A stretch of DNA of 60,942 bases from a virus. The stretch lies in the IMG/VR virus record IMGVR_UViG_3300036908_000165, positions 1 through 60,942 of that record; one strand, given 5' to 3'. Both the position numbers and the translations under genes were made by a program. Under the pieces are notes generated by a model. The model made no database searches, was not told the origin of the DNA, and saw only the letters and a program-made list of their open reading frames with translations. Each line of letters starts with the position of its first letter. Position 1 is the stretch's first letter. Below, piece by piece: positions 10,718-49,696 of the stretch.

Positions 10718-10751
10718 CTGAGTCCCCTTGGTTTGAGTCGCCAGAGGATCA

Positions 10752-10763
10752 TAACAGGTTGTA
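10752..10763. promoter_or_regulatory. TAACAGGTTGTA operator-like site
   Basis: Imperfect form of TAACAAnTTGTTA, found at 30023-30035 and 31283-31295. It lies 35 bases upstream of the recombinase start, where a repressor could act. Confidence 0.35.
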
Positions 10764-11144
10764 TCCGCAAAGCAACAACAAAGATGCGGTCGAGATACGT
10801 TTTGTTAGCACCAGGCGAGACGAATAGCCGGAATAGCGGAGCTGGCCGGCGGCTACCCGGCCAGATGCCCCGTATTTCACAGAAAATTTGGGGCGGCGGG
10901 CGAGATGGGGCACACGAATCTCGGGCGGGGCCGGTGTCCATTTTTCCTAGAAAAATCAACAATTTAGCAGAAATTGCCATCTGGCGGCCGCCCGGTCGCC
11001 TGGCGCGCCGGCGTGTCTCGAAACGGTAAACTCGCCAGCGTCGCGAGCCGACCGTCTCTTTATACGTCGCTTTAGCTGCGACACGTTGTCTCATATTAAC
11101 AATCACGACTAAGAAACAATGCGCTCGCGACGCCTGGTCGGGTC

Positions 11145-32922: not shown

Positions 32923-33030
32923 TCAACCTCGCCATATCGTGAGCAGCGCCACGAACACGACCACTGCAACCCCGGTCACGACAGCAGCAACGACCGCTAT
33001 GTGTTCGTCGCGAGGCGCATGGATCGTCAT
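32923..33030 (-). CDS. 35-residue membrane protein
   Basis: Soluble 10-residue start, then IAVVAAVVTGVAVVVFVALL, a membrane span. ATGA overlap with the previous gene. Candidate lysis or accessory peptide. Confidence 0.55.
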   Translation of the reverse strand: MTIHAPRDEHIAVVAAVVTGVAVVVFVALLTIWRG

Positions 33031-33851: not shown

Positions 33852-33852
33852 T

Positions 33853-34185
33853 TCAGATCCCCGTCATCGGTGGCGCGGCGGGATAGTTCGCCGCCGCGAT
33901 GAAATCCGTCCACGCCTTGTAGTCGGCCGCCGAGGTCCACGGATACGCCTTCGTTCCGTTCTCCGGCCACGCATCGGCGAGCGTCACGGTGAGGGCATTC
34001 GTCGTCCAAACGACCGTAACTTCGGGTGTCTCGAACATCACCGACGACAGCGTGCATGTCATCCGCGATGCGCCGACTTGGACACCCGACGCCTCATAGG
34101 ACTCCCCATCGACGGTCAGGACGGCCGTGCCGGGGCCGTCCTGGTTGATCGACACTCCATCCATGCTGAACGACGCATAGGTCAT
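33853..34185 (-). CDS. Beta-rich protein of unknown function
   Basis: 110 residues, Thr/Val-rich strands (GTAVLTVDGESYEASGVQVG and VTVVWTTNALTVTLADAW). Ends with Pro-rich tail. No signal peptide. Could be a small virion or carbohydrate-binding protein. Confidence 0.55.
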   Translation of the reverse strand: MTYASFSMDGVSINQDGPGTAVLTVDGESYEASGVQVGASRMTCTLSSVMFETPEVTVVWTTNALTVTLADAWPENGTKAYPWTSAADYKAWTDFIAAANYPAAPPMTGI

Positions 34186-34189
34186 GGAT

Positions 34190-34396
34190 TCAGCCTCCTC
34201 GAATTGCTTGAACGACGATCCAAATTAAGAGGCCGATGGCGCACAGGATTGAAAGGGGCGCGCCCCAAAAGAACGTGACCCACCAGCCGGTAGGAGGCGG
34301 TCCATCCGACATCATTGCCGCAGTCAAGGAGAGCAACCAGAAGCCGCCCCCGGCCCACAGAGCAACATCCAGTACGATCAAGAGCGCGTCGCGCAT
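34190..34396 (-). CDS. Two-span membrane protein
   Basis: 68 residues. Spans about 3-27 and 42-62 (WVTFFWGAPLSILCAIGLLI). GGAG seven bases upstream. Holin candidate, one of several near the amidase. Confidence 0.6.
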   Translation of the reverse strand: MRDALLIVLDVALWAGGGFWLLSLTAAMMSDGPPPTGWWVTFFWGAPLSILCAIGLLIWIVVQAIRGG

Positions 34397-34412
34397 GTTT
34401 TGTCTCCACAGT

Positions 34413-34439
34413 CGCCCCGGCGCACTTCACGCCGGGGCG
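34413..34439. terminator. Perfect 10-bp hairpin after the lipoprotein gene
   Basis: CGCCCCGGCG, 7-base loop, CGCCGGGGCG, in the 58-base gap between two leftward genes. No T-run. Confidence 0.55.
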
Positions 34440-34454
34440 TGAACGCCTGCTACG

Positions 34455-34823
34455 TCAGCTTCCGTAGGGACCGAAGTGGAACGGCGCCGACACCTTCATT
34501 CTTTCGCCGGTGCGCTTCATGGCGGCCGTCTGCGCCGCAACCGTCACCGTGCCCGATCCGCCGATGTTCGAAATCCCGGCGACGACATTGGCCACGTCGT
34601 TTGCAAACGTCGGACAGTCGTTGGTGACGTCGGTGATGATGCCGCCGACCACGGAATTGATCGCCGTACCGTCAGGCAGCAGTCCCGAGACGGTCGCCAC
34701 CGCTTGCGCGCCCGCGCCGAGTACGGTGCAGCCGGCGAGAATGTTTGCCGCCACTTGCGTCGAGGTGCATCCGGCGAGCAAGATGGCCGCCGAGGTGGCT
34801 GATGCGAGGAGTATCTTTTTCAT
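34455..34823 (-). CDS. Lipoprotein
   Basis: 122 residues. MKKILLASATSAAILLAGC is a clear signal with lipobox LLAGC (Cys19). The mature part is Ala/Val/Gly/Thr-rich with three more Cys. Anchored to the membrane or outer membrane; in the lysis module it could be an outer spanin-like protein or a superinfection factor, but it is not Pro-rich. AAAGGA upstream. Confidence 0.7.
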   Translation of the reverse strand: MKKILLASATSAAILLAGCTSTQVAANILAGCTVLGAGAQAVATVSGLLPDGTAINSVVGGIITDVTNDCPTFANDVANVVAGISNIGGSGTVTVAAQTAAMKRTGERMKVSAPFHFGPYGS

Positions 34824-34836
34824 TTTGTTGTTCCTT

Positions 34837-35175
34837 TCACGGTTGATGCGCGGCAACTGCCGCTACTGCATCGGCTTTGACGGCCGATATGTCTTTAGGC
34901 GTCGCTGTCGAAGGCAGGTTGGCGACAGCCTGCGCCGCTACCACAACGGGTGGATCGGGGGGTGCGAGAGCCCCCGGCTGGCTGGAAGACAGAAAGTTCC
35001 CGGCGCTGTTCAGGCCGCCGTAAACCATGAAGATCAGGGCGGCGGTTTGCACAATGTCCTTCGCGGCGCCGGCCGGAACATAATCCGGGAACGCCGCCAC
35101 GCCGACTGTTCCGATGACGCCGCATACCGCGATCGCGAGATTGACAGCGCCTTTTACGTTCGGGTCTATCTGCAT
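34837..35175 (-). CDS. Holin candidate
   Basis: 112 residues after GGAGGG. Two spans (AVNLAIAVCGVIGTVGVAAF and DIVQTAALIFMVYGGLNSAG) then a Pro/Ala/Val-rich charged tail, the common layout of class II-like holins. About 500 bases before the amidase gene in reading order. Confidence 0.55.
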   Translation of the reverse strand: MQIDPNVKGAVNLAIAVCGVIGTVGVAAFPDYVPAGAAKDIVQTAALIFMVYGGLNSAGNFLSSSQPGALAPPDPPVVVAAQAVANLPSTATPKDISAVKADAVAAVAAHQP

Positions 35176-35177
35176 TG

Positions 35178-35348
35178 TCAGAATCTCCCTCCAAAGAGAT
35201 ACAAGATAACAACGACAAGTAAGATCACACCAATGATCCCCACGCCGCCGTGGCCCATGCCGTACCCGTAACTTCCGCCCCAATACGGAGCGCCGATGCC
35301 CCCGCCGAACAGCAGCACCAGCACGATGATCAGCAGAATTAAAAACAT
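35178..35348 (-). CDS. DUF3309-like small membrane protein
   Basis: 56 residues: MFLILLIIVLVLLFGGGIGA, then GSYGYGMGHGGVG and VIGVILLVVVILYLFGGRF-like second span. Two hydrophobic segments around a Gly/Tyr/His linker match DUF3309, common in alphaproteobacteria and their phages. TAGGAGG before ATG. Confidence 0.7.
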   Translation of the reverse strand: MFLILLIIVLVLLFGGGIGAPYWGGSYGYGMGHGGVGIIGVILLVVVILYLFGGRF

Positions 35349-35357
35349 CTGAGCCTC

Positions 35358-35462
35358 CTACATATTCTTTGCCAAAATCCAGAACACATATACCACAACC
35401 GCGAGGGTCAGCCACCCCATCGCCGAATTGCCAGAGACGGAATCGGCAGCGGATTTGATCAT
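35358..35462 (-). CDS. 34-residue membrane peptide
   Basis: Starts MIKSAADSVSGNSAMGWLTL, one span (LAVVVYVFWILAKNM). No good ribosome binding site. Possible small membrane gene of the lysis cluster. Confidence 0.4.
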   Translation of the reverse strand: MIKSAADSVSGNSAMGWLTLAVVVYVFWILAKNM

Positions 35463-35472
35463 GGCGCGGGAG

Positions 35473-35688
35473 TCACGGTAGGCGCAAGCCTCGCGTGTCT
35501 TTTAAAGTCTTCATCATGATGCGGCGCAACACCTTTTGCTGCTGGACCCCGTGCTCTTCGTTCTCGTTTAGCCCCCACCTGACCGTGCGCTCCGGGATGC
35601 CCAGAACCAGACCTATCTCGTGAGGAAACATTCCCCGGTCCCGCATTGCCCGCGCTTCATTTGGCCATGCGACGGGCAACGGGGTCAT
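35473..35688 (-). CDS. Small helix-turn-helix protein
   Basis: 71 residues after GGGAG. WPNEARAMRDRGMFPHEIGL then VLGIPERTVRWGLNENEE resembles a sigma-region-4/Trp-repressor-type helix-turn-helix. Coupled to the amidase gene (ATGA). May regulate late genes. Confidence 0.6.
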   Translation of the reverse strand: MTPLPVAWPNEARAMRDRGMFPHEIGLVLGIPERTVRWGLNENEEHGVQQQKVLRRIMMKTLKDTRGLRLP

Positions 35689-36296
35689 TGGGGTACTCCC
35701 TTGATTTCGGCGATGCGCGCCGTCACGAGCCCAAGCGCCCATGCGTTCGTCACGAGATTGCCTGGGCATGCATGATGGTCTGCAATGCAATCGCGATGGA
35801 AAGCCACCGCCGTCTCTGGATTCCAGCCGAACCGCACGCACAGCGCCGCGATGATGTTGGCCGACGCCTGCATCGACGCGAGCCCTTGGCCGTTCGACGG
35901 GTCGTCGCCGCCGGTAGTGAAATTCCCGATCGTCTCGACGCCGTAGTAGTTTTCGTTACGGCAAGAATCGTGGACGCCATCCGAATTCACGTCGCAGAGC
36001 ACCCACGACCATCCGTCGGGAGTGCCCATAAAATGCGGCCCCGAGTGCCATCCCATATTCTTGTAATAGGGATCGAGGCCGGCGCCGTAGTTGATCCGCG
36101 TCGTCGGCGACCACGTATTCCAGAGCCCGAGACTGGGGCTTCCGGTGTTGTGCCAGACGACGCCCACCGGCGCCCACATGCGTCCCGCGTAGGATGTTCC
36201 GGCCGGGGCCGGTTTGAAGTTCGTCTTCTGGATCGCCGAGATGTATTTCACCATGGCGTCGGCGTCGAGCCGAAGAACGGGGTTGATGAAGCTCAT
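35685..36296 (-). CDS. N-acetylmuramoyl-L-alanine amidase (endolysin)
   Basis: 203 residues. Amidase_2/PGRP pattern: VVWHNTGSPS (zinc His, about 48), WHSGPHFMGTPDG, GVETIGNFTTGG (Glu) and FHRDCIADHHACPGN (zinc His and Cys near 170). Cuts peptidoglycan for host lysis. No signal peptide, so it needs one of the nearby holin candidates for release. Confidence 0.9.
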   Translation of the reverse strand: MSFINPVLRLDADAMVKYISAIQKTNFKPAPAGTSYAGRMWAPVGVVWHNTGSPSLGLWNTWSPTTRINYGAGLDPYYKNMGWHSGPHFMGTPDGWSWVLCDVNSDGVHDSCRNENYYGVETIGNFTTGGDDPSNGQGLASMQASANIIAALCVRFGWNPETAVAFHRDCIADHHACPGNLVTNAWALGLVTARIAEIKGVPQ

Positions 36297-36327
36297 GGCA
36301 GTTCAGTCTCCCGGAGGTGATCTCGCG

Positions 36328-38436
36328 TCACTGTAGACGCTCCAACGTCACATCATATTTGACCGTCGGCGTGCCGGTCACGCTTGTCGCGACAAGCGCC
36401 CATTGAACCGCCGTTGCCGCATCGGCATGAAGGGTCTCACAAGTTTGCTGGGCGGCGCCCAAATGGGTGTATTGCGGCGTGGCCGCAATGGCCGCCGTAA
36501 CGGTGTCGTTTTGTGAGTTCCCATTCGCCGTATATGAGGCCCATCCCTGAAAAGTTCCGGCTGTTCCGGCCACGGTCATCTCAAGAAAGAAACACATCCT
36601 GTAAGTTCCACCGCCCGGCGGCGCAGTGATAAGCGTCGAATAGCTGGTCCCCGCCGTTCCGCTGTACGATCCTTGGTTAACGCTCGCCACAGCTTCGACG
36701 ATTCTATTAAACGTTCCGGCTCCGCTTTTTTCGGCCATATAGGTCGGCGGCGCGCTTCCGGGGGTCCAATTCGATGACACCTCATTGTCGCTGAGGACGA
36801 CGTTGACGCTTGCGCTATCGTTGTAAATCCCGGCGGTTGCAGCCCCCGCGATCGCGTTGTCGCCGACGCGCCAAGTCTCGTTGACGTAATAGGCGTTGGA
36901 CGCATTCTCGAAGTCGATACCATATGTCCCAAGCCCCTGGGCATGCGTCGAGTTTAGCGACAGATTGCAATCGTTGTGCTCTATGGCGCCCTCGCCATAA
37001 GCCGGAAGGCCAGTGTTGGTCGTCGCCACAACAATACAACGCTGCGCAGAAGTGTTGACCGGAGCACCGATAGGTGGAGAATAGGCATTCTGAAATAGAT
37101 TATCGTGAATGTGGACTTTGAAGTGACCTTCTGCCGTGTCGTTAGCAATCTTAATGCCAACCGGCATAAGTTCAAAATAGTTGTTGTGAACTTCGGTTAC
37201 ATCTGGATTACTTAGATATAGACCCCCCACATTGCTTGCAAAGAACTGGTTAAGGTCAATCTCCATGTTGCCATAGTTATATGCAATGACTTCCCATGAA
37301 GTGAACCCTCCAAATAGGTTATTATGAAGCTTACCTTGAAAGCCCGCCGCTGGCGTATCGAAGATAATAGCGTTTGCGGCAGTCCACCCCCCAGAAAAGA
37401 CATTATCTTCAATATCCGAAGGGCCATTGATGCCGTGGAAATGGATGATCGACGTTGCCGCCGCTGTCTCGATGAATGCAAGATGCTGAAAACTTACATC
37501 ATAGGTGTAGTTGGCCGGGTTGCCTCCGGATTCAATTAAAAATTCATCTCCAGTTCCCGTATAACGTAGCGCTGATCCACCGGCTGTTGTACTTAAAGGC
37601 GCTTGTGGCGAAATGCCTTCAACACGAACGAATCCTGTGATGTTTAGAGTGGATGCGTGTGAACAAATATGTCCATTTGGAATTATTATTTGGCCCGCGC
37701 TTGAGGTGCTTTGTGTTTGCGCCGCGTTTATAGCTGCTTGAAGTGCCGCACTGTCGTCTGTTGAACCATCACACACGGCATTATATGGCGGCGACATTGG
37801 GTTGATGGGCGGGAAACCGCTGGCACCGGGCTCAAAGTCGCTGTTCGTCGGATTCCATGTCGGAACTTGCCCGGCCGTGTAGGTCGCGCTAGGCTTGTAA
37901 GCGAGGCCCTGAACCTTGGCGGCGTTCCCTACTGTGAGGCCCGAGGCCGTCCCTGTCAGGTTGGTCGCGACGCCGTCGAGCGGCGTCCCGAGTGCGCCGC
38001 CGTTGACGACCGGCGCGCCAGCCGAGCCGATAGCGATTTGCAGCGCCGCCTCAACACCAGCTCCGGCCGGGAAATGCTGCGCCACGCCGGCCCCACCCGT
38101 CCCACCGTAGAGTTGCGAGGTCGTCAGGCTGGGAAGCGCCGTTTGAAGCGGCGCCAACGAGTCGGCGAGGACGCCGTTGTTGTCCCACAGCACGCCGCCG
38201 TTCGTCGATGGAACGAGTGGCGTTTGGCCAGGCGCAATCGGTACGAGCGGCGCAATAGCGTCGCCAAGCTGCGTCACCGTCATCTTCTTGGAGACGCCGC
38301 CTTGGACAACATAGAGCAATTCACTGCCGGCGAGCGGCGTCGATACCTGCGGGCAGGTCGTCAGCGTGCCGCACTGCTGCGCCGCGGCGGGCGACGCGAT
38401 CAAAACAGCGACGAGAGCGATCTTCAGTCGGACCAC
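36328..38436 (-). CDS. Secreted right-handed beta-helix protein (tailspike-like)
   Basis: 702 residues from GTG with TAGGAGG six bases upstream. The N terminus VRLKIALVAVLIASPAAAQQ is a Sec signal with AxA cleavage site. Residues about 205-600 have the pectate-lyase/glycosyl-hydrolase-28-like beta-helix pattern: DGSTDDSAALQAAINAAQTQ and many NxF/NxI turns such as IEDNVFSGGW, KLHNNLFGGF and EVHNNYFELM. The end is a beta-sandwich. Position in the fibre cluster suggests receptor or polysaccharide binding; the signal peptide is abnormal for a virion protein. Confidence 0.75.
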   Translation of the reverse strand: MVRLKIALVAVLIASPAAAQQCGTLTTCPQVSTPLAGSELLYVVQGGVSKKMTVTQLGDAIAPLVPIAPGQTPLVPSTNGGVLWDNNGVLADSLAPLQTALPSLTTSQLYGGTGGAGVAQHFPAGAGVEAALQIAIGSAGAPVVNGGALGTPLDGVATNLTGTASGLTVGNAAKVQGLAYKPSATYTAGQVPTWNPTNSDFEPGASGFPPINPMSPPYNAVCDGSTDDSAALQAAINAAQTQSTSSAGQIIIPNGHICSHASTLNITGFVRVEGISPQAPLSTTAGGSALRYTGTGDEFLIESGGNPANYTYDVSFQHLAFIETAAATSIIHFHGINGPSDIEDNVFSGGWTAANAIIFDTPAAGFQGKLHNNLFGGFTSWEVIAYNYGNMEIDLNQFFASNVGGLYLSNPDVTEVHNNYFELMPVGIKIANDTAEGHFKVHIHDNLFQNAYSPPIGAPVNTSAQRCIVVATTNTGLPAYGEGAIEHNDCNLSLNSTHAQGLGTYGIDFENASNAYYVNETWRVGDNAIAGAATAGIYNDSASVNVVLSDNEVSSNWTPGSAPPTYMAEKSGAGTFNRIVEAVASVNQGSYSGTAGTSYSTLITAPPGGGTYRMCFFLEMTVAGTAGTFQGWASYTANGNSQNDTVTAAIAATPQYTHLGAAQQTCETLHADAATAVQWALVATSVTGTPTVKYDVTLERLQ

Positions 38437-38798
38437 AGGTAGCCTCCTACGCCGCCTTCAAGATGTAGTGGACAGTTGTTTTTCTCGAACAGGAACAGCG
38501 CGTGGTAGCTCGGCAGGACCGCGGAGTTGTAGAGCGCGACCGGATCTCTCGTGGCTCGAAACGCTTGGATTACGCCGAACGGCACGCCGGCGAACATCAT
38601 TATTACGGACCCGGAAGCGACGTAGAGCATCTGTGCCGCCTGGTCGTAGCCGACCGAAGAAATCGTGCTGAACGAGACAATCTGGTTGGGAAACTGGATC
38701 GTCCAACCGGCGTCGATCGACGGGCACGGCTCGGCCGGCGGGACCGCCGCGGCGGGCGTCGAGGTGAACAAAGCGAGCATGAGAGCGAGCCGACGCAT
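38424..38798 (-). CDS. Secreted KTSC-like small protein
   Basis: 124 residues. MRRLALMLALFTSTPAAAVP is a signal peptide. The mature part VGYDQAAQMLYVASGSVIMM then FAGVPFGVIQAFRATRDPVA resembles the KTSC domain (YDxxxxxLYVxF...GVP). Function of KTSC is unknown. Its end overlaps the start of the beta-helix gene. Confidence 0.6.
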   Translation of the reverse strand: MRRLALMLALFTSTPAAAVPPAEPCPSIDAGWTIQFPNQIVSFSTISSVGYDQAAQMLYVASGSVIMMFAGVPFGVIQAFRATRDPVALYNSAVLPSYHALFLFEKNNCPLHLEGGVGGYLWSD

Positions 38799-38799
38799 T

Positions 38800-40257
38800 T
38801 CAATACCTCAACTGCGCGGAAAGCTGCTGCGTCTGGCCAGTGCCGATGCCAGACCCGTAGAATGTCTCGGTTGCGGTAAAACTCGTGTATTCGAGCGCCT
38901 GAAAATAATTCAAACCGACGTTGCCGTAACCGATGACGGTCGCGACTTCCGCCGCGACAGCAATTCCACTGGGCGTCATGCCGAGCGTCCCCAGGAATGG
39001 CGTCGAGACGCTATTGTAACCGATGCCGACTTGCGTGTATTGCGTCGAGCTTTGCGTACCAAAACAGGTGTAGATGACTTCAAACACATCTTCGGCCTGT
39101 CCTATAACGAACGTGAGCCGGTTGTTATTGCTCGCGTCGGCTGCGCGCCACGCGGCGGTCGCATAGGTCCAGCTCGCCTTACTATCCTGCGCCGTCAGGA
39201 CAACTGGCACGCGGTTGTATTGGTTCCACAGGCCAAGCCCCGCGCCGTTCGTCGGACCGCCGCTCGCCGCCGCGGGCTGCGGGTTGAATGTCACCGTCGC
39301 CGCGCCGGCGTCGCAAGCGATCGTACCGACGTAGAAGCCGTAGCCGGCAGCGGGGCCGTTGGTGATCGGCAGCGAGTTGACCAAGAAGCCTTGCACGCGA
39401 CTCAGGTTGAGCGAGCGAGCCGTGCTGCTCGTCCATGCCGGACCGCGCGACAGCGTCGCGACACCGGCCTTGAACCAGACGAACATGTCGTAAAGACCGC
39501 CGGCGACCGCGGCGGCGGGCGAGTTCACCGTGTCGCTGAGAACCTGGCTGATCTCGGGGAAAGTCGTCGAGCTCCACGCCGAGCCGCTCCACTGCGGCAC
39601 GGTAGCGCCGTTGAAAGGCGTCCAAATAAGTCCGCTGGCTCCGATCACGGCGCTTGCCAGCACCGGCACGCCGCTCGTCAGCGTCAGGCGGCCGTTTGGC
39701 GGCTGGGCGACGCCGGTTCCGGCGAGCGGCTGCCAGCCTGAAGCGCCGTAGCCCTCGAATGCGGCAAGCGTCGTGTTGTAGCGGATCGCGCCATTCGCCA
39801 CGCTGTTGCGCTGGCCCGTCGTGCCGGCGGGAACAACGATCTCGCCGGTTCCCGACATCGACAGGTCAGCGGCGAAAGCCGCGGCGCCGGTGACGGCCAG
39901 CGTGCCGCCGACGGATAGATTCCCGCCGAATGTTCCGTTACCCGAGACGCTCAGGCTGGCGAAGTTCCCCGGCGAGTTCGATCCCGGAGGCAACAACAGC
40001 CACGCGCCGCTGGCGCCGGTCGGCTCGATGACCGTCGAACCATTGTCGGTGGCCGTGCTCGTTGAATTGTACCAAAACCAGCCTTGCAGGCCATCGCCCT
40101 CGGAGGATCCCCCGAGCACGAACACTGCCATGTCGTCGAGCGCGGTGAAGGTGCGCAGTTGGGCGAAGTTCCGGACGACCTGGACGTAGGTGTTCAGCTG
40201 ATCCGCGTCGACCGAGCCTTGACCTTGCTGAGCGACTGTGGGGAGCGGAGGAGCCAT
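38800..40257 (-). CDS. Tail fibre protein
   Basis: 485 residues, no signal peptide. The first 90 residues (QLNTYVQVVRNFAQLRTFTA, DGLQGWFWYNSTSTATDNGS) are an adsorption-domain repeated in the next gene; then Gly/Thr/Ser strands (NLSVGGTLAVTGAAAFAADL) and a C-terminal beta domain ending AQLRY. Likely a trimeric fibre with the N-terminal domain anchoring it to the tail. Confidence 0.75.
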   Translation of the reverse strand: MAPPLPTVAQQGQGSVDADQLNTYVQVVRNFAQLRTFTALDDMAVFVLGGSSEGDGLQGWFWYNSTSTATDNGSTVIEPTGASGAWLLLPPGSNSPGNFASLSVSGNGTFGGNLSVGGTLAVTGAAAFAADLSMSGTGEIVVPAGTTGQRNSVANGAIRYNTTLAAFEGYGASGWQPLAGTGVAQPPNGRLTLTSGVPVLASAVIGASGLIWTPFNGATVPQWSGSAWSSTTFPEISQVLSDTVNSPAAAVAGGLYDMFVWFKAGVATLSRGPAWTSSTARSLNLSRVQGFLVNSLPITNGPAAGYGFYVGTIACDAGAATVTFNPQPAAASGGPTNGAGLGLWNQYNRVPVVLTAQDSKASWTYATAAWRAADASNNNRLTFVIGQAEDVFEVIYTCFGTQSSTQYTQVGIGYNSVSTPFLGTLGMTPSGIAVAAEVATVIGYGNVGLNYFQALEYTSFTATETFYGSGIGTGQTQQLSAQLRY

Positions 40258-40258
40258 A

Positions 40259-40819
40259 TCACACCATGAACCACTTCTCGACGCCGGCGACGTACTGCCA
40301 CGTCGCGGGCGAAGCGGCGCCGAGCGTCGTAATCGGCGCGAGAATTGTTTGGCCGCTCGGCGCTACGAGCGTCAGCGCCGTAATCGTCTGGCTCGACGAC
40401 AGCGTCAGCATTTGACCGTCGATCGGCGCCGCCGGAAAGGTGATTGTTCCGGCGGCGAGCGTGCCGACAGGGTCGAGCAGCAGCGACGTGACGCCGTTAG
40501 CGACCTGGATCGCGAAGCCGGTGACAGGCGTCTGGTAGGAGTAGGTCGTCCCCAGCTTCAACCACGCGCCTTGGATAGCGCCGGTCGGAACGATGACCGT
40601 CGCGCCGTTGTCGGTGGCGAGGCTGGCGGCGCTGTACCAGAAGCGGCCACCCAGCCCATCGCCCGGCGTCGCGCCGCCCTGCACGTCGGCCAGCATGCCG
40701 GTGAGGCCGGTGAAGGTGCGCAGCTGCGCGAAGTTCGTCACCGTCTGGACGAACGTGTTCAGGTTGTCGCCCGAGACGACAGCAAAACCTTGAGCGAAGA
40801 CGGTAGGCAGCGGGTTCAT
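40259..40819 (-). CDS. Short tail fibre, paralogue of the neighbour
   Basis: 186 residues. Residues 1-88 match the N-terminal domain of the 485-residue protein (NLNTFVQTVTNFAQLRTFTG, ATDNGATVIVPTG), then a short beta domain. A tandem duplication of the anchor with different tip. Confidence 0.75.
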   Translation of the reverse strand: MNPLPTVFAQGFAVVSGDNLNTFVQTVTNFAQLRTFTGLTGMLADVQGGATPGDGLGGRFWYSAASLATDNGATVIVPTGAIQGAWLKLGTTYSYQTPVTGFAIQVANGVTSLLLDPVGTLAAGTITFPAAPIDGQMLTLSSSQTITALTLVAPSGQTILAPITTLGAASPATWQYVAGVEKWFMV

Positions 40820-40865
40820 TTTTCTACCCTATCACAAGTCAGCCGCTTTTGTCTGTTCAACCGCC

Positions 40866-40949
40866 TCACCCCTCCATCATCGGCGCGCGGTCCGCCGCCT
40901 CCAGGAAGATGGCGAGGCAGAGGGTGATTGAAATGGCGACCCAGATCAT
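40866..40949 (-). CDS. 27-residue membrane peptide
   Basis: MIWVAISITLCLAIFLEAAD: one span, then acidic tail. Starts within the stop of the beta-helix gene (ATGA). Support is the overlap only. The rest of the gap 40820-40945 holds nothing clear. Confidence 0.4.
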   Translation of the reverse strand: MIWVAISITLCLAIFLEAADRAPMMEG

Positions 40950-42574
40950 TTCACGCCGTATCCTGTTATATAGTATGGGAAGGATGATCCTATCCACGTG
41001 TTGAATGTTGAATCGGGCCCACCACTTCCATTTCCTAATAAATTGACATTTCCTGATACGGTCGGCACCGCCGATCCGGCCTGTGCTGAATAGAAACTAA
41101 AATAGAAACAGCCGCTCGGGTCAACCCAATTCCCAGACATATTCGTGTTTGTGTAATTTAACCCTGCGTCACCCGCAATAATCGATCCGCACGTTGCATC
41201 GTCAGCAGCGGGGTATAAGAGAGGCGCCGCATTGGAAATAAATACGTTTCCAACAAAATTTCCATTAGTTAATGTTTGTCCTGAGTACGTCGCCTGATTG
41301 CGGGTCAGCATCGATGTACCGCCATATTCATTGGAATTTAGGACTTCCGTATTATACGAAATATCCATATAGCCTTGGACATTAGCACCAGAGAAATTCG
41401 CGAATTGCGGGTCTCCATGCTCTATCGCGGAATTTAAGGTTCCTGGCGCGACGGCATTCGATTGAGTCAACGCATATACACCGACACCGTTGGTCGCCCC
41501 CGAGGTTTGACTGGAAATAAATGTGTTCGAGTATTCTGCCCCCGTTAAGGTTGGCGATGTCACCTTAGAGTGTGTTGTCCCAGGTACGATCCCTTGCGCG
41601 ATCGATGTCACAGTCAGCACATTTCCCACGACGCCATCATAGGTTCCCCCGCCCATCCCGTCATCAATGAATCCAGTGAATATACCCTGTAGCTGACCCA
41701 TCCCCTGTTCGTAGTTGTATCTCCACATTAACGACCCATATCCCGGCGAACTCCAATACGATTGGATCGTGTCAATAAACTCGTTGTATATAACGCATGC
41801 AGAATAAGATGTTGTGCACGGCCCAACTTGACTCAATAGACTAGACGGGTTGATCGCGGTCCAAAATATCATGCTTAACGCGCCGGGGTATAACGCGAGC
41901 CTCGCTATAGAGTTGCCATTAACGAGATTATTGCAGAATATCACCGGGCCACTACCGCCGAAAAACACAAAGTAATATTGATTTACCAAAGCGCAGTCCG
42001 AGTTCCATTTGAATATATTGTTGTGTACGTATTGTGTCCCGGTCACCGACGATGTAAAACTCAATACTACACAATTTTTGCCGCTGCTGCATACACCCCC
42101 AGCAAAGCTCGCACAACTGAAATCAAAACCGTTAAACTCCACACTGGCCGTGCCGGAGCATGTCAACGTGGAAGTTGAACTATTGTAGGCACAATGCGCC
42201 GGCAGGTTGCCACTGACGGTCGGATCGAGGAGCGTCGTCGGCGTTACACCGTTGGGGAGTGTGCTTGCATCAATTCCAACGGGGTAATCAACACCAGGGA
42301 CGTTTTGCGTCGGCCGCGTGATATAGATTTGACCGTTTTGTCTCGCGCAACCTAACTGGCCGGCCGTGCATGTTGCAGTGAAGAAATTTGGGTACTGATA
42401 AGTTCCAGTACTTGCAACCGGAGCACCAGGACATCCATCCGGCAGGGCGGTCCCGTAGGGGCACGCAGATCCAGACGAACCATGAAACGCGGCCATCGGT
42501 GATGGGCTCGTGAACACAAAGGCGATGAATATGAGAAGTCCCGGCGCGAGACTTGCGATGATACGATTCATCAT
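40946..42574 (-). CDS. Secreted Cys-rich beta-helix protein
   Basis: 542 residues. Signal: MNRIIASLAPGLLIFIAFVF. About 20 Cys residues, many in pairs (SACPYG, DGCPG, CASFAGGVCSSGKNC), unlike cytoplasmically folded virion proteins and suited to disulfides after export. Beta-helix turns include VHNNIFKWNS, VIYNEFIDTI, GNVFISNA. AT-richer DNA than neighbours, e.g. around 41000-41300. Possibly an exported depolymerase or adhesin. ATGA overlap with previous gene. Confidence 0.65.
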   Translation of the reverse strand: MMNRIIASLAPGLLIFIAFVFTSPSPMAAFHGSSGSACPYGTALPDGCPGAPVASTGTYQYPNFFTATCTAGQLGCARQNGQIYITRPTQNVPGVDYPVGIDASTLPNGVTPTTLLDPTVSGNLPAHCAYNSSTSTLTCSGTASVEFNGFDFSCASFAGGVCSSGKNCVVLSFTSSVTGTQYVHNNIFKWNSDCALVNQYYFVFFGGSGPVIFCNNLVNGNSIARLALYPGALSMIFWTAINPSSLLSQVGPCTTSYSACVIYNEFIDTIQSYWSSPGYGSLMWRYNYEQGMGQLQGIFTGFIDDGMGGGTYDGVVGNVLTVTSIAQGIVPGTTHSKVTSPTLTGAEYSNTFISSQTSGATNGVGVYALTQSNAVAPGTLNSAIEHGDPQFANFSGANVQGYMDISYNTEVLNSNEYGGTSMLTRNQATYSGQTLTNGNFVGNVFISNAAPLLYPAADDATCGSIIAGDAGLNYTNTNMSGNWVDPSGCFYFSFYSAQAGSAVPTVSGNVNLLGNGSGGPDSTFNTWIGSSFPYYITGYGVK

Positions 42575-44268
42575 GGGACCGTCACCACGATAGATGTTTT
42601 GTAGAAGGCCGCGATCGAGGTCGTACCCGCATTCTGCGATGTTGTGATGTCTGCGGAGGTCGGACCAGCGGCCACGCTGGAATTTGCAATTATCGCCGTG
42701 TCGGTCAGATCGTAGCAGGCGAACGCATTACCAAGGCCTCCGATGGTGATTCCACTCGATGCGGTGCTGGTTATGCCACATGTTGGCGGTGTTCCCGTCG
42801 CCGCCGATGCCTGAAACAATTGTGTTCGGGTATCGCCGGACGGAGCGGCAGTGTCGATCGCTGACCAAAGGTCTTTGATGTGCATTCCTATCGGGACGAC
42901 GCCCTCGCCAGCCGACTGCGTTGTAGAGTTGCTCATTGCTCCTTCAATGAGCGCGTATCGCGCTGCGATCAGCGTAGGTAGCGTGGTCCAGCTACCGAGC
43001 ATAATAGCGTTGTAGGCTGCGCTTGGCGTATATCGGGCAGATGCTGTTATAGCTTGCGCAGTCGGCGTGCCGTAGGGATAGAATGATAATGACACCGTAT
43101 CGCTAGCGTGTACCGTTACGGAAGATGTCAATACGTCATTGCATGATTTGGATGCACTGTAGATTACGCATGTACATGCTGTTAAGATCGTCGCCTGCAC
43201 GCCGCCGGCAACTGCGGATGTACATGTTGCCCCGCCACCTATTGGCGTGATAGCGCCATTCACGTAGAGCAGAACGGCATAACCCTTACTTGATGCTGGT
43301 GCATTTCCGGCTATCGCATATATCCGGTCGATCGCACCAACCGTCGCACCGGCAGTCGGACCGGGAATAATTGATGACACCAATGCTTCAGTGGTGTTAG
43401 GACCACTTGTGAAACCTACCCAATTCTGCGCACCGTTGGGGGCCGTCGCACCACTAAAGAATATCCCGCTTGTCCCATCTGGCGTGTGCAACACAAACGA
43501 CGCCGAACCACCCGCCACTGCGCCAGGCGATGAACTGTTGGGATCAGTCTTAAGAACAACTAGGTCCCCAGCCGTCACTGTGAGGGGACTATCCGCAGTG
43601 TCGTTGCAATAAGTTCCCGCCACAGTTATTGGACAATTTGTTATGCCGCCTATGCTTGTTGAGGCCGTCACGTTAAGTAGAGAGTTAATGTATTCCATAG
43701 CGCCAGTCAACGTAGCTGGCTCATTTACAGTGAGATTGCGTATCGTGCCACTAACCGGCATTGGTACTTCTGAGACCGATTCGGCAGTACTCCACGATTG
43801 ACCGCTCGGTGCTAGATAGCTTATTGCACTTGTGCTAGGCTGTGTATGCCCACCCATCACCACAGGTGTGTCCATGCCGGTGCCGGTGATCGTCTCTGGC
43901 TGCGTGTACGGGGAACCAGACGCCCCGGCGATCGTCGCGATGATGTTTATGCTGTAGGTACGCGAAAGAAGGACGCCCTGGGTTTCCAGATTTGCCGTTG
44001 CGACTTGAAAGGACGCTTGGTCGGTTCCGCTGATCGTCCACGTAGGACTGGCACACGATCCGGTAGTGCTGGCCGACATAGCGCTGACGACCGTACCGCT
44101 CGCCGCGAGCCCGGCAAACGAGGCGGCGCCGCTCGGACTGACGCTAACGATTACGCAGGAGCCGGCAACGGCCGGAGAACCAAGTCCCGCCCCCGTCAGC
44201 GCAAGCTGAGCGAGCGCGGGCGTCGCGAGAAGGCATAATGCGGCTAGGAGATAGCGCAAGGGGTGCAT
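42571..44268 (-). CDS. Secreted multi-domain adhesin-like protein
   Basis: 565 residues from ATG at 44268 (GAGG upstream). Signal MHPLRYLLAALCLLATPALA. Residues about 22-125 resemble an Ig/cadherin-like domain (SGTVVSAMSASTTGSCASPT, DQASFQVATANLE). The rest is Ser/Thr/Ala-rich beta, with several Cys. Also lower GC than the rest of the genome. No enzyme motif. Likely exported with its neighbours. Confidence 0.6.
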   Translation of the reverse strand: MHPLRYLLAALCLLATPALAQLALTGAGLGSPAVAGSCVIVSVSPSGAASFAGLAASGTVVSAMSASTTGSCASPTWTISGTDQASFQVATANLETQGVLLSRTYSINIIATIAGASGSPYTQPETITGTGMDTPVVMGGHTQPSTSAISYLAPSGQSWSTAESVSEVPMPVSGTIRNLTVNEPATLTGAMEYINSLLNVTASTSIGGITNCPITVAGTYCNDTADSPLTVTAGDLVVLKTDPNSSSPGAVAGGSASFVLHTPDGTSGIFFSGATAPNGAQNWVGFTSGPNTTEALVSSIIPGPTAGATVGAIDRIYAIAGNAPASSKGYAVLLYVNGAITPIGGGATCTSAVAGGVQATILTACTCVIYSASKSCNDVLTSSVTVHASDTVSLSFYPYGTPTAQAITASARYTPSAAYNAIMLGSWTTLPTLIAARYALIEGAMSNSTTQSAGEGVVPIGMHIKDLWSAIDTAAPSGDTRTQLFQASAATGTPPTCGITSTASSGITIGGLGNAFACYDLTDTAIIANSSVAAGPTSADITTSQNAGTTSIAAFYKTSIVVTVP

Positions 44269-44279
44269 GGGGTTATGCC

Positions 44280-45254
44280 TCAAAACTGCGTGTACCAATA
44301 GTCAATGTCGACGCCGCCAGTGCCGGTCGATTTGATGCACATGCCGTGACCAGAAGTACCCTTGAAGCCGTTGAAGAACGGCGACATCTCGACTTCGCCA
44401 GTGTTGGCCGCTTCGGTCGCGATGCCCGTCAACTGAGAACCGAGGTTGCTGCAATTAGCGTTGGCGTCCGCCTCGTCCTCGAAATACCACGTCGCGACGC
44501 CCGCGGCCCGAGCGCGCCAACCGCAGAAATAAATCGTCTGCGAAGCGACGCCCTGAATGGCGAGCGTGTCGGTCGCCGACGTGATGTGCTTGAACGTGTG
44601 CTGGTCGCACTGGACCAAGCCCGCCGAATAGCCGCCCGTTGCGCCGGACTCCTTGGCAAGCACCTGGACGCCGTTGGCAGGAGCCGCGGCACCGGTCGCC
44701 CCGAGGCCCCAGCTCGCCGACGTCGTCGGATTGACTGTAACCGCTGTCGGCGGCGTCAGCGTCGTGATCTGCGCCGCCGTGAGAACGACCGGAGCGGAAT
44801 TGGCGGCGAGTTGCTGACCAAGCGCGTAAGTCGCGCCGCCGATCTGCGTCTCGTTGAAACTCCAAGGACCGCCGATCTGATCGACGCCTCCGATGTCGAC
44901 GCCGGTTCCGGATTGGGCCGCGAGTGGATTCTTGGCGACGGTGTAGATGCCCTTCTCGACCGAGATCAGCGTCGCGTTGCCGGAGCCGCTCCACGCCGCA
45001 TCAGCAGTCGTGCCGAGATCAACGATCGAGCCTGTGGCGTATGCGCCGGCAACGGCTGTGACCGCGCCGCCCCCGCCTCCACCCCCACCGCTACTGCAAA
45101 GGTCCCCGGTCAGATTCATCGTGATAGGGAACGACTGTCCTGCCACCAGGGTCTGGTTGCCGCACGAGGCGACCGTGTAGGCCGACATCGTCTGTGCCTG
45201 CGCCGATGCGCATAGACAAGCCGCTGCGAAAGCGGCGAACAGGATTCTCTTCAT
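44280..45254 (-). CDS. Secreted protein with Gly-rich linker
   Basis: 324 residues. Signal MKRILFAAFAAACLCASAQA; a short domain with Cys, then a poly-Gly linker (about 55-62) and a beta-rich body ending GTGGVDIDYWYTQF. Coupled (ATGA) to the previous gene. Fibre-tip or exported binding protein. Confidence 0.6.
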   Translation of the reverse strand: MKRILFAAFAAACLCASAQAQTMSAYTVASCGNQTLVAGQSFPITMNLTGDLCSSGGGGGGGGAVTAVAGAYATGSIVDLGTTADAAWSGSGNATLISVEKGIYTVAKNPLAAQSGTGVDIGGVDQIGGPWSFNETQIGGATYALGQQLAANSAPVVLTAAQITTLTPPTAVTVNPTTSASWGLGATGAAAPANGVQVLAKESGATGGYSAGLVQCDQHTFKHITSATDTLAIQGVASQTIYFCGWRARAAGVATWYFEDEADANANCSNLGSQLTGIATEAANTGEVEMSPFFNGFKGTSGHGMCIKSTGTGGVDIDYWYTQF

Positions 45255-45892
45255 GTCATCCACCTGCAAAGGAAAGCCTGGCCGGTCGTCGCGCCGAACA
45301 CCGCGATCGCGTCGGTGAAGCACGACGTGCCGTTGAGCAGATACGGCGCGCTGGCCGCCGACAGCAGCATCCCCGACGTCGCCGACGGAACCGCGCAGCC
45401 ATAGGGGTCGAGATCGCTGTTCATGATGAAGACGTAGGGCGCGATCGCGTAGCCGGCGCCGGGATCGTCGATGACGATCGACGAGATGGACAGATTCGGC
45501 GCCGAGCCGGTCATCACGCAGTGGGCGCATGCGACGCGTCCGGCGACGATCGACGAGTTGGGCCCGTCGCCGCCCGGCTGGTTGAGCCCGAGGAAAGCCG
45601 TGTTGCCGGAATAACCGCCGCCGGCGAAGCGCACGACCGGCGGCTTGGAGAAGTTGAAGCCGGCGTTCGTCACGGCGATCGACGTGATCGCGCCGCTGGT
45701 GATCGTCGCAGCCGCGCGCGCCGAGCCGAAATCGAACCACAGCGGCCCCGCCGACACATTCTGCAGCATCAGGAAGGAGCGCGACGGCGTCACCGGCAGG
45801 ATCAACTGCGGCGTGCCGCCCGCTACGATCGCGCCGTCCGCGGTGAAGAGAGGATGGCGTTTGGCTTGGTTGCCTGAGCCCACAAGTTGCAT
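45251..45892 (-). CDS. Virion protein with GSGY-like repeats
   Basis: 213 residues. The N terminus KRHPLFTADGAIVAGGTPQL with FLMLQNVSAGPLWFDFGSAR looks like a small structural domain; then AITSIAVTNAGFNFSKPPVV and DPGAGYAIAPYVF are variants of the GSGY repeat. Four or more Cys in the second half. First gene of the fibre group after the operator at 45936. Confidence 0.6.
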   Translation of the reverse strand: MQLVGSGNQAKRHPLFTADGAIVAGGTPQLILPVTPSRSFLMLQNVSAGPLWFDFGSARAAATITSGAITSIAVTNAGFNFSKPPVVRFAGGGYSGNTAFLGLNQPGGDGPNSSIVAGRVACAHCVMTGSAPNLSISSIVIDDPGAGYAIAPYVFIMNSDLDPYGCAVPSATSGMLLSAASAPYLLNGTSCFTDAIAVFGATTGQAFLCRWMT

Positions 45893-45922
45893 CGGATTTT
45901 GTCCTTTTCGCCTTTAGAGGGC

Positions 45923-45947
45923 TTGACAGCTTTCAATACTATAGTAT
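45923..45947 (+). promoter_or_regulatory. TTGACA with ATACTATAGTAT palindrome
   Basis: Perfect 12-bp palindrome (45936-45947) seven bases after TTGACA, AT-rich, upstream of the leftward fibre genes. The TTGACA faces right, away from those genes, so the site may be an operator or give antisense RNA. Confidence 0.5.
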
Positions 45948-45955
45948 GGATACGC

Positions 45956-46150
45956 CTACGCTCGGCGGCGGGTCTCCAAGTAGGCGACGGGGAGAATCGT
46001 GAAGGCGGACCCGGCAAGCAGGACGTAGAGCGAGAACATCGTCTGGCTGAGCATCGCCATGACGGCGAGAACGAACGAAAAGAGCAGGGCGAGCAGGAGC
46101 AGCGCGCGGGCGCTCAGCACGTAGGCGAGAGCCTTGAAGGCGGCAACCAT
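45956..46150 (-). CDS. Two-span membrane protein
   Basis: 64 residues from the ATG five bases after the previous stop (a longer frame starts at 46285 but overlaps the previous gene by 130 bases). Spans ALAYVLSARALLLLALLFSF and SLYVLLAGSAFTILPVAYLE. Unknown. Confidence 0.5.
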   Translation of the reverse strand: MVAAFKALAYVLSARALLLLALLFSFVLAVMAMLSQTMFSLYVLLAGSAFTILPVAYLETRRRA

Positions 46151-46154
46151 TGCG

Positions 46155-46481
46155 TCATGCGTCGAAGAGTCCGGTTCCGCCGGCGGGATCTGGGGCGCCG
46201 GGCTCGGCGGGTTCGGAACTGCTCTCGGCCGCTGGGGGACGTCCTCGACGCTTAGGCGTCTCACTGAACTGTCGCTTGATGTCATCGAACTTGGTCTTCC
46301 CTCGCTCCGGCGGCTTCAGCACATTACGCGTCTTGGCCCAGTCGACCACCGCCTGGAACGCCTTGACGCGGTCCGCGAGCTCGACTTTCGCCGGCTCGGC
46401 GCCCTCCACCTTAGCACCGAACCCGGCGGCGTCCAACAGGCTGGCGGCCGCGGCGTCGATCGTGTCGAGAAGGTCGATCAT
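46155..46481 (-). CDS. Unknown charged protein
   Basis: 108 residues; helical N terminus MIDLLDTIDAAAASLLDAAG, basic middle (PPERGKTKFDDIKRQF), Pro/Ser tail ending GGTGLFDA. ATGA overlap with previous gene. Not recognised. Confidence 0.58.
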   Translation of the reverse strand: MIDLLDTIDAAAASLLDAAGFGAKVEGAEPAKVELADRVKAFQAVVDWAKTRNVLKPPERGKTKFDDIKRQFSETPKRRGRPPAAESSSEPAEPGAPDPAGGTGLFDA

Positions 46482-46816
46482 TGTCGGTCACGATAGACGG
46501 CCCCAGGATCTTCAATAAGCGCATTTAGCCGGCGCTTCACACGTTCGAGTATCGAAAACAACATATACGCATACCACACAGCTTTTTTCGGAGTGCCTAA
46601 TATTCCGCTAATGTGATTAAGCACTTCATCCTGTATCAACACTATGGCGTCTGAATCTAAATTGGCCGAATCTGCATTCAACGTGCCAACTACGCTCACA
46701 AAAAGCGAGCATGTTTTTTGTTCTAAGATACCACTATCGAGTTTTTCCCACCCCTCTAAGTCCATTACGCTTATGATTTTACCAGTTTTTGTTTTTACCG
46801 AGAATAATTCTTTCAT
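46478..46816 (-). CDS. Lower-GC accessory gene
   Basis: 112 residues (MKELFSVKTKTGKIISVMDL; AGGAG upstream). Codon use is AT-rich compared with neighbours except at its 3' end, where the last codons (DPGAVYRDRQ) are GC-rich and carry the ATGA overlap to the next gene. That resembles the gene-end joins seen at 52188. Function unknown; reading MDLEGWEKLDSGILEQKTCS it is a soluble alpha/beta protein. Confidence 0.58.
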   Translation of the reverse strand: MKELFSVKTKTGKIISVMDLEGWEKLDSGILEQKTCSLFVSVVGTLNADSANLDSDAIVLIQDEVLNHISGILGTPKKAVWYAYMLFSILERVKRRLNALIEDPGAVYRDRQ

Positions 46817-46840
46817 AGCGGCCTACTCCTATATAATCTG

Positions 46841-49696
46841 TTACTGTAAACTGCGACGATGCTGAATATACTGACCGAGCCCCAACGACTCTCCACCTGC
46901 AGCGACAGCTAAAGCAGCCGCAATCCAAGCGGCAAATTTTCGAGCACTCTCATGGTCCATGTTCTTCTTCTCGGCCTCACGAGCGTCGCTGAAAAACTTC
47001 TGGTACTGGGCCTCGCTGATCGAGCCGCGATCGTACAGCTTCTTGGCCGTCGACTCGGCGGCTGAGACGATCTGTTTCGGCGTGTTCTTCGGCTCGTTCA
47101 TTTCTATCTCGAGCCGGCGGATGGCGCTGCGCGCCGCAGTTGCCTTGGCCTTCATCGAAGCCAGGTCAGTGATATTTTGCTGCGTCTTCTTGAACCCCGG
47201 CTTGTCCGCGGCGCTCGCAGAACGCAATTCTTCGGCCTTGCCGGCTTCCGTCTCGGCTGTTTCTTCCGCCGCTTTCAGGCCGTCTCGCATCGCCTTGTAT
47301 TCCGGCATGAGCCCGGACTTCTCCAAGGTGATTCGTTTGTTTTTGATAAGCTGATCGAGAGCTTTCGAATCAGGGGTCTTCGGCAGATCGAAATCAAGCG
47401 CCCGCTTGACGGTCTCTTTCAAATCGGGCTTGACGGAGATCAACCGCTCCAGCGCCTTGCCGCCTTCTTCCGTCTGATCCGTGATCAGGTTCTTGATTTT
47501 GACGGCATCCGTCACGGGTTCGCCGGAATAAAGATCGGACTCAGCGGCCTTGGCGAGCTTGCCCTTGCGCTCGTAGATGTCCACGTCGCGAGACAAGTCG
47601 GCGTACTTCATTCGAGCCGTTTTCAGATCGGGATGCACGGTCTCCATATGCTCGACAAACTCGTTTCGAATGTCGATCAATTCATGCTTGACCTGCGACG
47701 TCGAGCCTTCGATTGCGGTATTGAGATTCTCGACGAAATCCCGCCCACGCTCTATAGAAACACTGCTAACCGTCGGGCCGCCTTTAACGACTGGCTTCGT
47801 GGCTAGCTTCGATTTCAGCGACCCGAGATCGACATCGAAGCGCTTCTCGATATCCGCGATCCTGCTTATCGCCGCCTTCGTATCGATGGACGGGAGCCCA
47901 TGATCCGACTTGACTGCGGCGTCGAAGCCTGAATCGGCGCGTCGCTTGTCTTTAGCCGCCTTCACGTCCTTAGCCATCACCTCTGAAGCTTCGGCTCCAA
48001 GCTTCTCGGGTGGCGTCGTCGGGCGCGCCGCGATCTCGGAGACCTTTGCCTGCCTGGCAGTTTCCGCCTCCGCCGCCTTCTTCTCTTGCGCGACTGTCGA
48101 CGACTCCTCGCCTGCCGCCTGCGTCTTGGCGTTCAGCTTGTCGATTTGCGCGATCTTCGCCGTCCGCTCCTTCTCGGACAGAAACTTGCCGGTCTCGGCA
48201 TTGACACCCTCGCGCAACTCTTTTGAAAGGCGCTCGGCTTCGCCGCCCCAGATATCGCTGACCTCCTTGGCGGCCCAGCCATAACCTTTCTTCACAAGGC
48301 TGGTGGCGCTGGGAATAACCGCTGCGCCGGCGCCGCCCATGACTCCGGTAGCCGCGATGTCTGTCAGCTTCTTCTCGGCACGATTCGTCGGATCGGTTTC
48401 ACCTGTTGGTTGAGCCGCGCCAAACAGGCCGCTCCAACCAGCAGCCTCGGCGATCTTTCCGGCCCACGGCGCAGCTTCGGTGAAAGCCTTGACGCCAGCG
48501 CCTGCCGCCTCGGCGCCCTTAGCAAGTGGCAGCGACTGTACGAGCGCTCCGCCGATCGACTGACCAATAGGTGCGCCGACGCCCTCGAGAGTTTTGTCCG
48601 CTTCGGCGGCGCCTTGTCCGATAGCTCCCGGCACGTTCTCCGCAACACCCAACACACCTTGTGTGGCGCCGGAAGCGACGCCCTTGCCAAGATCCTCTCT
48701 CGCCTGAAAGAACCGGCCGGGTGACGCAGCTTCCCAGAAGCTCAGCGGCTTTTCGCTGGCGTCAGGCGACTTCCCATATGGATTGTTCTTGCCGACATCC
48801 TGCGCGTAAGCCTCTTGCGGATCGAACGGAACCATCTTAGCGCCCGGCGGAAGCGGCGGAGCCTCAGACGCTGCGGCCTTCGTGTCCCCGTCCATCGGAA
48901 CAAGCTTGGCTCCAGGCGGAAGCGGCGGCGCCGAAGCGTCGTTCGTCGCGTCTGAAATCGCATCGGAAGCGACCTGAGGTTGAGAATTTTCGACGGATTT
49001 CGTCTGAGTGGCGTCGAAAGCCGTTCCGTCGAAGTCCTTAGTCATCATTCCGTAGATCTGGCTCAGATTCCTCGGCTGGTTCGGATCGCCGCCGTGAAAG
49101 AAGATCGTCGGATTGTATTTTGCTTCGAGCGGAAACAGCGCCGCGGCGTTGGTCGTCGGCTCAACCTGCATCGCTTTCAGAAATTTCGGGCCGCCCGCGG
49201 TCCCAAGGAAGTGCATCATGTAGAGGTTGGACGGCGTCGGATCGAACCCCTCTTTCTGCAGGACGCGCGAATTGTCGGCGGTCAGTGCCTTCATCGCCTG
49301 ATCCTGCTTGTCGCCGTTCCAGATATCCTCGGGCCGCAGCCCCAGCTCAGGATGCGCGGCGGCGACGCCCAGCCACGTCCGCTGCGTGAACTGGTAGCGG
49401 CCGAACGCCGTGCCGTTGCCGGCCATGTCGTTGCCGCCGCTCTCGCGCCGGCGCACGGTCGCCATATAGTCGCCGCCCGCCGGCTGCGCACCGGCGGGAG
49501 AGCCGCTCGCCGCCGGCTGCGGACCGGCGAGAGCGCCGCCGGCCGCCGGCGCGTTGAAGTAGCCCGGATGCGTCTCGGGCGTGATCTTGCCGGGCTTCAC
49601 CGCAGGCTGGGGAGCGGCCTCCGGGGGCGGCGCAAGAACCGTCGGCGCCCAAGGCGTCGTTTGGTCGAGCGCAGTGCTGTCATCCAAGAGGCTCAT
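46841..49696 (-). CDS. Internal virion protein with transglycosylase domain
   Basis: 951 residues. After a Pro/Ala-rich start, residues about 75-160 are a lytic transglycosylase: TVRRRESGGNDMAGNGTAFG (Glu) and RYQFTQRTW. Two copies of APPLPPGAK lie near 255-285. Residues 480-900 are long coiled coils; the end is a helix with a possible span (WIAAALAVAAGG). This fits podovirus ejection proteins that cross the periplasm and open the wall at infection. The start MSLLDD is also present as two decayed copies upstream. Confidence 0.8.
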   Translation of the reverse strand: MSLLDDSTALDQTTPWAPTVLAPPPEAAPQPAVKPGKITPETHPGYFNAPAAGGALAGPQPAASGSPAGAQPAGGDYMATVRRRESGGNDMAGNGTAFGRYQFTQRTWLGVAAAHPELGLRPEDIWNGDKQDQAMKALTADNSRVLQKEGFDPTPSNLYMMHFLGTAGGPKFLKAMQVEPTTNAAALFPLEAKYNPTIFFHGGDPNQPRNLSQIYGMMTKDFDGTAFDATQTKSVENSQPQVASDAISDATNDASAPPLPPGAKLVPMDGDTKAAASEAPPLPPGAKMVPFDPQEAYAQDVGKNNPYGKSPDASEKPLSFWEAASPGRFFQAREDLGKGVASGATQGVLGVAENVPGAIGQGAAEADKTLEGVGAPIGQSIGGALVQSLPLAKGAEAAGAGVKAFTEAAPWAGKIAEAAGWSGLFGAAQPTGETDPTNRAEKKLTDIAATGVMGGAGAAVIPSATSLVKKGYGWAAKEVSDIWGGEAERLSKELREGVNAETGKFLSEKERTAKIAQIDKLNAKTQAAGEESSTVAQEKKAAEAETARQAKVSEIAARPTTPPEKLGAEASEVMAKDVKAAKDKRRADSGFDAAVKSDHGLPSIDTKAAISRIADIEKRFDVDLGSLKSKLATKPVVKGGPTVSSVSIERGRDFVENLNTAIEGSTSQVKHELIDIRNEFVEHMETVHPDLKTARMKYADLSRDVDIYERKGKLAKAAESDLYSGEPVTDAVKIKNLITDQTEEGGKALERLISVKPDLKETVKRALDFDLPKTPDSKALDQLIKNKRITLEKSGLMPEYKAMRDGLKAAEETAETEAGKAEELRSASAADKPGFKKTQQNITDLASMKAKATAARSAIRRLEIEMNEPKNTPKQIVSAAESTAKKLYDRGSISEAQYQKFFSDAREAEKKNMDHESARKFAAWIAAALAVAAGGESLGLGQYIQHRRSLQ

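Follow-up and report, generated by a model that had tools for sequence, protein, structure and literature searches.

The assembly of tailed phages is generally regarded as taking place entirely in the cytoplasm. Use of the host Sec pathway by phages is described for the Lom protein of phage lambda and for SAR and SP endolysins (PMC12309495, PMC6116005). In phages of Porphyromonas gingivalis, proteins of unknown function were reported that carry signal peptides and a Gln at position +1, while the signal peptides of the major capsid protein were attributed to the prohead protease (PMC10367356). A secreted enzyme with a tailspike fold is also known from bacteria: WceF of Pantoea stewartii carries a Tat signal and modifies exopolysaccharide (PMC7949094). 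In the open-licence papers covered by our literature search, we found no report in which signal peptides characterise the fibres or spikes of a whole lineage of tailed phages. In this study, we describe a fibre block of an uncultivated virus record in which signal peptides are frequent, and we discuss what they may mean for the assembly of the phage.

Results

The window and its relatives

The window, i.e., the whole stretch of DNA that was analysed, comprises 60,942 bases, is a virus record of IMG/VR and carries phage genes for the head, a terminase, a DNA polymerase, a primase and lysis. In its late region, large internal-virion-type proteins (46841, 50262) are followed by the fibre genes and then by the endolysin, and from this gene order the phage looks podovirus-like. 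Two further genes of the window may be mentioned here. A 595-aa gene without PHROG match (2949-4736, plus strand) lies between the minus-strand major capsid and terminase genes, and its product is portal-like by position only. At 54368-54943 (minus strand) a gene with a sulfotransferase-like N-terminus (FALPRSRTAW...) and weak matches to unknown and hydrolase PHROGs is kept in the relatives L005 and L011.

Judged by the terminase, the closest GenBank relatives are two metagenomic phages (34% identity). In eight IMG/VR contigs the terminase is 42-83% identical to that of the window, and these form one lineage; a ninth contig, L005, has no terminase match, and its late genes are 86-90% identical to those of the window. 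The fibres of the two GenBank relatives have no signal peptides and are almost free of Cys, and signal peptides on fibres therefore appear to be a trait derived in the lineage of the window. Searches of GenBank phages with the individual exported proteins, at both DNA and protein level, gave no match, and neither did searches of plasmids and genome contigs.

Table 1. Genes and protein segments of the fibre block, in window coordinates.
Feature	Position	Strand	Basis or remark
36328, tailspike-like protein, 702 aa	36328..38436	-	phrog_2234 tail spike (E 5e-5); NosD, Beta_helix and pectate-lyase-like Pfam matches
36328, Sec signal peptide MVRLKIALVAVLIASPAAA, predicted cut before QQC	38380..38436	-	conserved in relatives
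36328, mature N-terminal module QQCGTLTTCPQVSTPLAGSELLYVVQGGVSKKMTVTQL..., with C-x5-C pair	about 38161..38379	-	profile matches to phage fibres without signal peptide
36328, variable beta-helix, C-terminal part after it	about 37081-37785	-	
38424, small exported KTSC-like protein, 124 aa	38424..38798	-	Pfam KTSC (E 8e-4, below curated cut-off)
38424, signal peptide MRRLALMLALFTSTPAAA, predicted cut before VPP	38745-38798	-	
38800, conserved tail spike without signal peptide, 485 aa	38800..40257	-	Pseudanabaena phage Pam5 tail spike (E 1e-18)
40259, paralogous head-domain protein without signal peptide, 186 aa	40259..40819	-	alignment and direct repeat
40946, exported Cys-rich protein, 542 aa, 15 Cys in mature part, variable slot	40946..42574	-	
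40946, signal peptide MMNRIIASLAPGLLIFIAFVFTSPSPMAA, predicted cut before FHG, weak site	42488-42574	-	
42571, exported Cys-rich protein, 565 aa, 10 Cys in mature part, variable slot	42571..44268	-	
42571, signal peptide MHPLRYLLAALCLLATPALA, predicted cut before QLA	44209-44268	-	
44280, exported protein, 324 aa, 6 Cys in mature part, variable slot	44280..45254	-	
44280, signal peptide MKRILFAAFAAACLCASAQA, predicted cut before QTM	45195-45254	-	
45251, conserved structural-type gene, 213 aa, no signal peptide, bounds variable slot	45251..45892	-	weak virion-protein PHROG matches

Signal peptides of the fibre block

Signal peptides were called with a home-made rule. For its calibration, 101 proteins of E. 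coli K-12 were used, and the rule picked out 8 of the 9 exported ones, none of the 74 cytosolic ones and 2 of the 18 membrane proteins. Shuffled N-termini pass the rule in 2.2%. The initial annotation had assigned signal peptides to five genes of the fibre block (36328, 38424, 40946, 42571 and 44280); all five are where it had put them, on the minus strand and with n/h/c-type N-termini, and the calibrated rule called every one (Table 1). Their N-termini have a positive n-region, an uncharged hydrophobic core and small residues at -3/-1; the cleavage site of 40946 is weak. Across the lineage the A-x-A cleavage sites are kept, and Gln occupies the predicted +1 position in 12 of 27 cases.

The signal-peptide genes are co-located in one operon-like block. 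Within the window, a signal peptide was found in 5/7 fibre-block genes vs 2/59 genes elsewhere (Fisher p 4.7e-5). Over eight contigs including the window the numbers are 27/45 and 10/154, with a Fisher p of 1e-13 that is indicative only, since homologues were counted repeatedly and the block boundaries were drawn by the analyst. The ten genes outside the block are mostly lipoproteins of the lysis region and membrane proteins.

The gene starts are supported by their context. Gene 36328 begins with GTG, and an AGGAGG Shine-Dalgarno sequence lies six bases upstream in the window and in L002 (GGGAGG in L003); the GTG is conserved as well. Gene 42571 starts at the ATG at 44268 and not at the TTG at 44298. 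The ATG of 44280 at 45254 overlaps the upstream gene's stop codon within a 4-bp ATGA, and a 4-bp ATGA overlap also supports the start of 40946.

Other export routes were considered and rejected. The twin-arginine motif of Tat substrates (S/T-R-R-x-F-L-K) is absent from the five N-termini. None of the five predicted mature proteins has a Cys at +1 and no lipobox is present, which argues against lipoproteins processed by signal peptidase II; a lipobox does occur in 34455, outside the fibre block. An exported endolysin of the SP or SAR type was rejected as well, because the five proteins have no lytic domain in Pfam; the Amidase_2 gene 35685 carries no signal peptide. The N-termini strongly indicate that the five proteins are Sec-type export substrates, as a prediction from sequence.

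Paired cysteines

The Cys-rich mature parts noted in the initial annotation were borne out by the counts. Cys makes up 1.54% of the mature signal-peptide proteins on average, vs 0.65% of the other proteins. Of the 26 mature signal-peptide proteins that contain any Cys, 23 have an even number and 3 an odd one; among the other proteins, 38 have an even and 50 an odd number. In the KTSC-like protein, the pair C25/C109 is invariant in five homologues, down to 30% identity, and in L061 (17095-17781, minus strand) the exported KTSC-like domain is tandemly duplicated, with one Cys pair in each copy. In the spike module, 6/8 members have the C-x5-C pair, and both Cys are gone in L015 and L016. The predicted disulfides are C22-C28 in 36328 and C25-C109 in 38424. 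The Cys excess, the even counts and the pairs that are kept or lost together argue for real export and strongly suggest that disulfides form in these proteins. Paired Cys, the signature of an oxidising compartment, are thus present in the sequences.

A constant spike module and a variable slot

Eight spikes from six contigs have only their first 60-100 residues in common, including the signal peptide, and nothing beyond. This N-terminus of 36328 recurs in L002, L003, L015 and L016 and in three L061 proteins; the remainder of the protein does not. A profile search with the mature module matched fibres of unrelated phages that carry no signal peptide (E 4e-10 to 2e-4). Outside the lineage, 0/9 of these module genes have a signal peptide, whereas inside it 7/8 module spikes pass the cut-off and the eighth lies just under it (3.19). 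The dN/dS ratio of the module is 0.19-0.48 in three pairs, i.e., it is under purifying selection.

The homologue of 36328 in L003 carries a Peptidase_S74 chaperone at its C-terminal end (above curated cut-off), and an L061 fibre matches the tail fibre family phrog_972. Thus, 36328 and its relatives have the sequence features of tailspikes and tail fibres, namely matches to tail families, a beta-helix, S74 and the N-terminal module. A sequence search of the PDB with spike 36328 gave no match, and the AlphaFold2 models of the KTSC-like protein (pLDDT 53) and of the spike (pLDDT 35) were too poor for fold searches. No match to any known family was obtained for 40946, 42571 and 44280, so that their identity as fibres relies on location and modularity. 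Overall, the exported proteins are most likely variable receptor- or glycan-binding fibres or spikes of the phage and not random exported enzymes.

Presence of a signal peptide follows the protein type: it was found in 6/6 KTSC-type proteins and in 0/17 head-domain proteins (40259/38800 type). Spike 38800 is 60-69% identical over its full length in relatives, and it may be this protein that serves as the spike of the virion. Its head and that of 40259 are duplicates of each other, visible as a direct repeat of 185 bases with 71% identity (window 40013-40197 and 40578-40762). The module-bearing spike is absent from L011 and L014, and is therefore not essential in every member of the lineage.

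Between 45251 (78-90% identity in 4 relatives) and 40259 lies a slot in which the signal-peptide genes differ from relative to relative. The first 55 residues of 44280 are common with an L005 protein and the C-termini differ. L011 has almost none of these signal-peptide genes. In L006 (about 10643-10970) the slot is nearly empty, with about 330 bases between the homologues of 45251 and 40259 in which a signal-peptide gene start is left; L005 holds about 2.7 kb in the same place, and the upstream genes are nearly identical. In L015 (15290-17041) and L061 (12313-13956), a signal peptide is followed by a long glycine-rich region, comparable to some phage adhesins or fibre tips. The window also encodes a serine recombinase of the DNA-invertase type (10163-10717, minus strand; phrog_125, E 7.5e-61). 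An invertible fibre cassette, prompted by this gene, was rejected because no convincing inverted repeats flank the block; no obvious invertible segment was found within window 33000-47000.

Discussion

As the best explanation, we propose that the variable fibres of this podovirus-like phage are made as Sec preproteins, mature in the periplasm and dock on virions at lysis, to which we assign a probability of roughly 0.5. Signal peptidase I would cut off the signal peptide of the fibre and spike preproteins. Judging from their sequences, the mature fibres would then acquire their fold and their disulfides in the periplasm of the diderm cell that the phage has infected. The modular pattern suggests that the N-terminal module, constant and situated behind the cleavage site, engages a partner that is constant too, possibly the virion, and that the exchangeable C-terminal part acts on surface glycans by binding or cutting them; a docking role of the module is proposed by analogy with its position in other phages. 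Lysis would mix periplasm and cytoplasm, and the fibres might then attach to the tails of virions assembled in the cytoplasm, which is the least certain step. It is tempting to speculate, if somewhat more tentatively, that virion assembly is split between two compartments: capsid and tail would be made in the cytoplasm, the variable receptor-binding fibres would mature in the periplasm by means of the host's disulfide chemistry, and the two would join only at lysis.

The initial annotation had suggested that the proteins may be enzymes or adhesins released from, or displayed on, infected cells and not part of the virion. Signal peptides and paired Cys agree with its export and disulfides; its non-virion part is less well supported, as by sequence (fibre module, swapped C-termini, S74 in one relative and matches only to tail families) the proteins look like the phage's own variable fibres and spikes. 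Its idea of a free role is nevertheless a serious possibility, if a doubtful one: the exported proteins could act free, as soluble fibres or depolymerases, released into periplasm and lysate, whose stripping or masking of surface glycans would aid release, stop progeny from re-adsorbing to debris or block rival phages. The export evidence fits this equally well, spike 38800 is available for the virion, and the slot adjoining 45251, with different signal-peptide genes in each relative, resembles accessory cargo. However, free enzymes or decoys would need neither a fibre N-terminal module under purifying selection nor an S74 fibre chaperone. Docking at lysis is favoured because a selected constant module needs a constant partner and equals the N-terminal end of relatives without signal peptide. 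It is weakened because L011 has almost no such genes, a point that also speaks for free action, and because a spike without signal peptide exists. On balance, we weigh docking slightly above free action.

Potentially, the hydrophobic N-terminus stays uncleaved, as an inner-membrane anchor or buried in the virion for use at infection. Hydrophobicity by itself is no proof of cleavage, and the site in 40946 is weak; the conserved A-x-A sites and the frequent Gln at +1 nevertheless point to processing, and the Cys excess with even counts fits full export, so that we consider this improbable. Still less probable is that unrelated lysogenic-conversion cargo, i.e., morons such as lambda Lom, which is likewise exported and encoded between tail genes (PMC12309495), was collected in the fibre region: the fibre module is common to eight proteins, there are tail-family matches, the DNA-invertase-type recombinase is the only integrase-like gene among those examined, and Pfam gave no outer-membrane-protein match. 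An OmpX/Ail-like beta-barrel of the Lom type was also sought in Pfam and rejected. Wrong start codons or chance hydrophobic N-termini are the least credible explanation, since inferred starts and a home-made rule are here backed by ATGA overlaps, a conserved Shine-Dalgarno sequence, signal peptides conserved in relatives, the rate among shuffles and the E. coli calibration.

Export signals on fibres and spikes conflict with the usual rule of an all-cytoplasmic assembly of tailed phages. If the fibres of this lineage are exported, oxidised and added at lysis, fibres could be exchanged between co-infecting phages, receptors could be masked before release and binding domains could be stabilised by disulfides. 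If they act free, phages would encode a broad class of secreted proteins that bind surfaces. In either case, signal peptides on phage fibre genes should not be written off as errors of annotation.

Compared with known systems, the proteins described here resemble right-handed beta-helix tailspikes and S74 fibres in their constant N-terminal module, exchangeable beta-helix or fibre C-terminus, location in the late region before the lysis genes and, in one relative, Peptidase_S74. They differ from these in the predicted cleavable Sec signal peptide before the module and in their many paired Cys. Small fibres with the motif M-ADTKLS.L..a.pL.g.dl.yvVQGG.sKk (for example, DSL-LC05 WJZ48167, Pantoea LIET2 gp98 and Erythrobacter R6L gp78) have a homologous N-terminal module, but lack both the signal peptide and the C-x5-C pair of the window spike. 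As is predicted for the window spikes, WceF brings a tailspike-like fold out of the cytoplasm, but it is a bacterial enzyme that uses Tat and is not encoded in a phage genome (PMC7949094). The P. gingivalis phage proteins share Sec signal peptides and Gln at +1, but were not described as fibres (PMC10367356). Finally, Lom and the SAR and SP endolysins use Sec as the window proteins are predicted to do, but serve outer-membrane or lysis functions, whereas the window proteins are most likely fibres (PMC12309495, PMC6116005).
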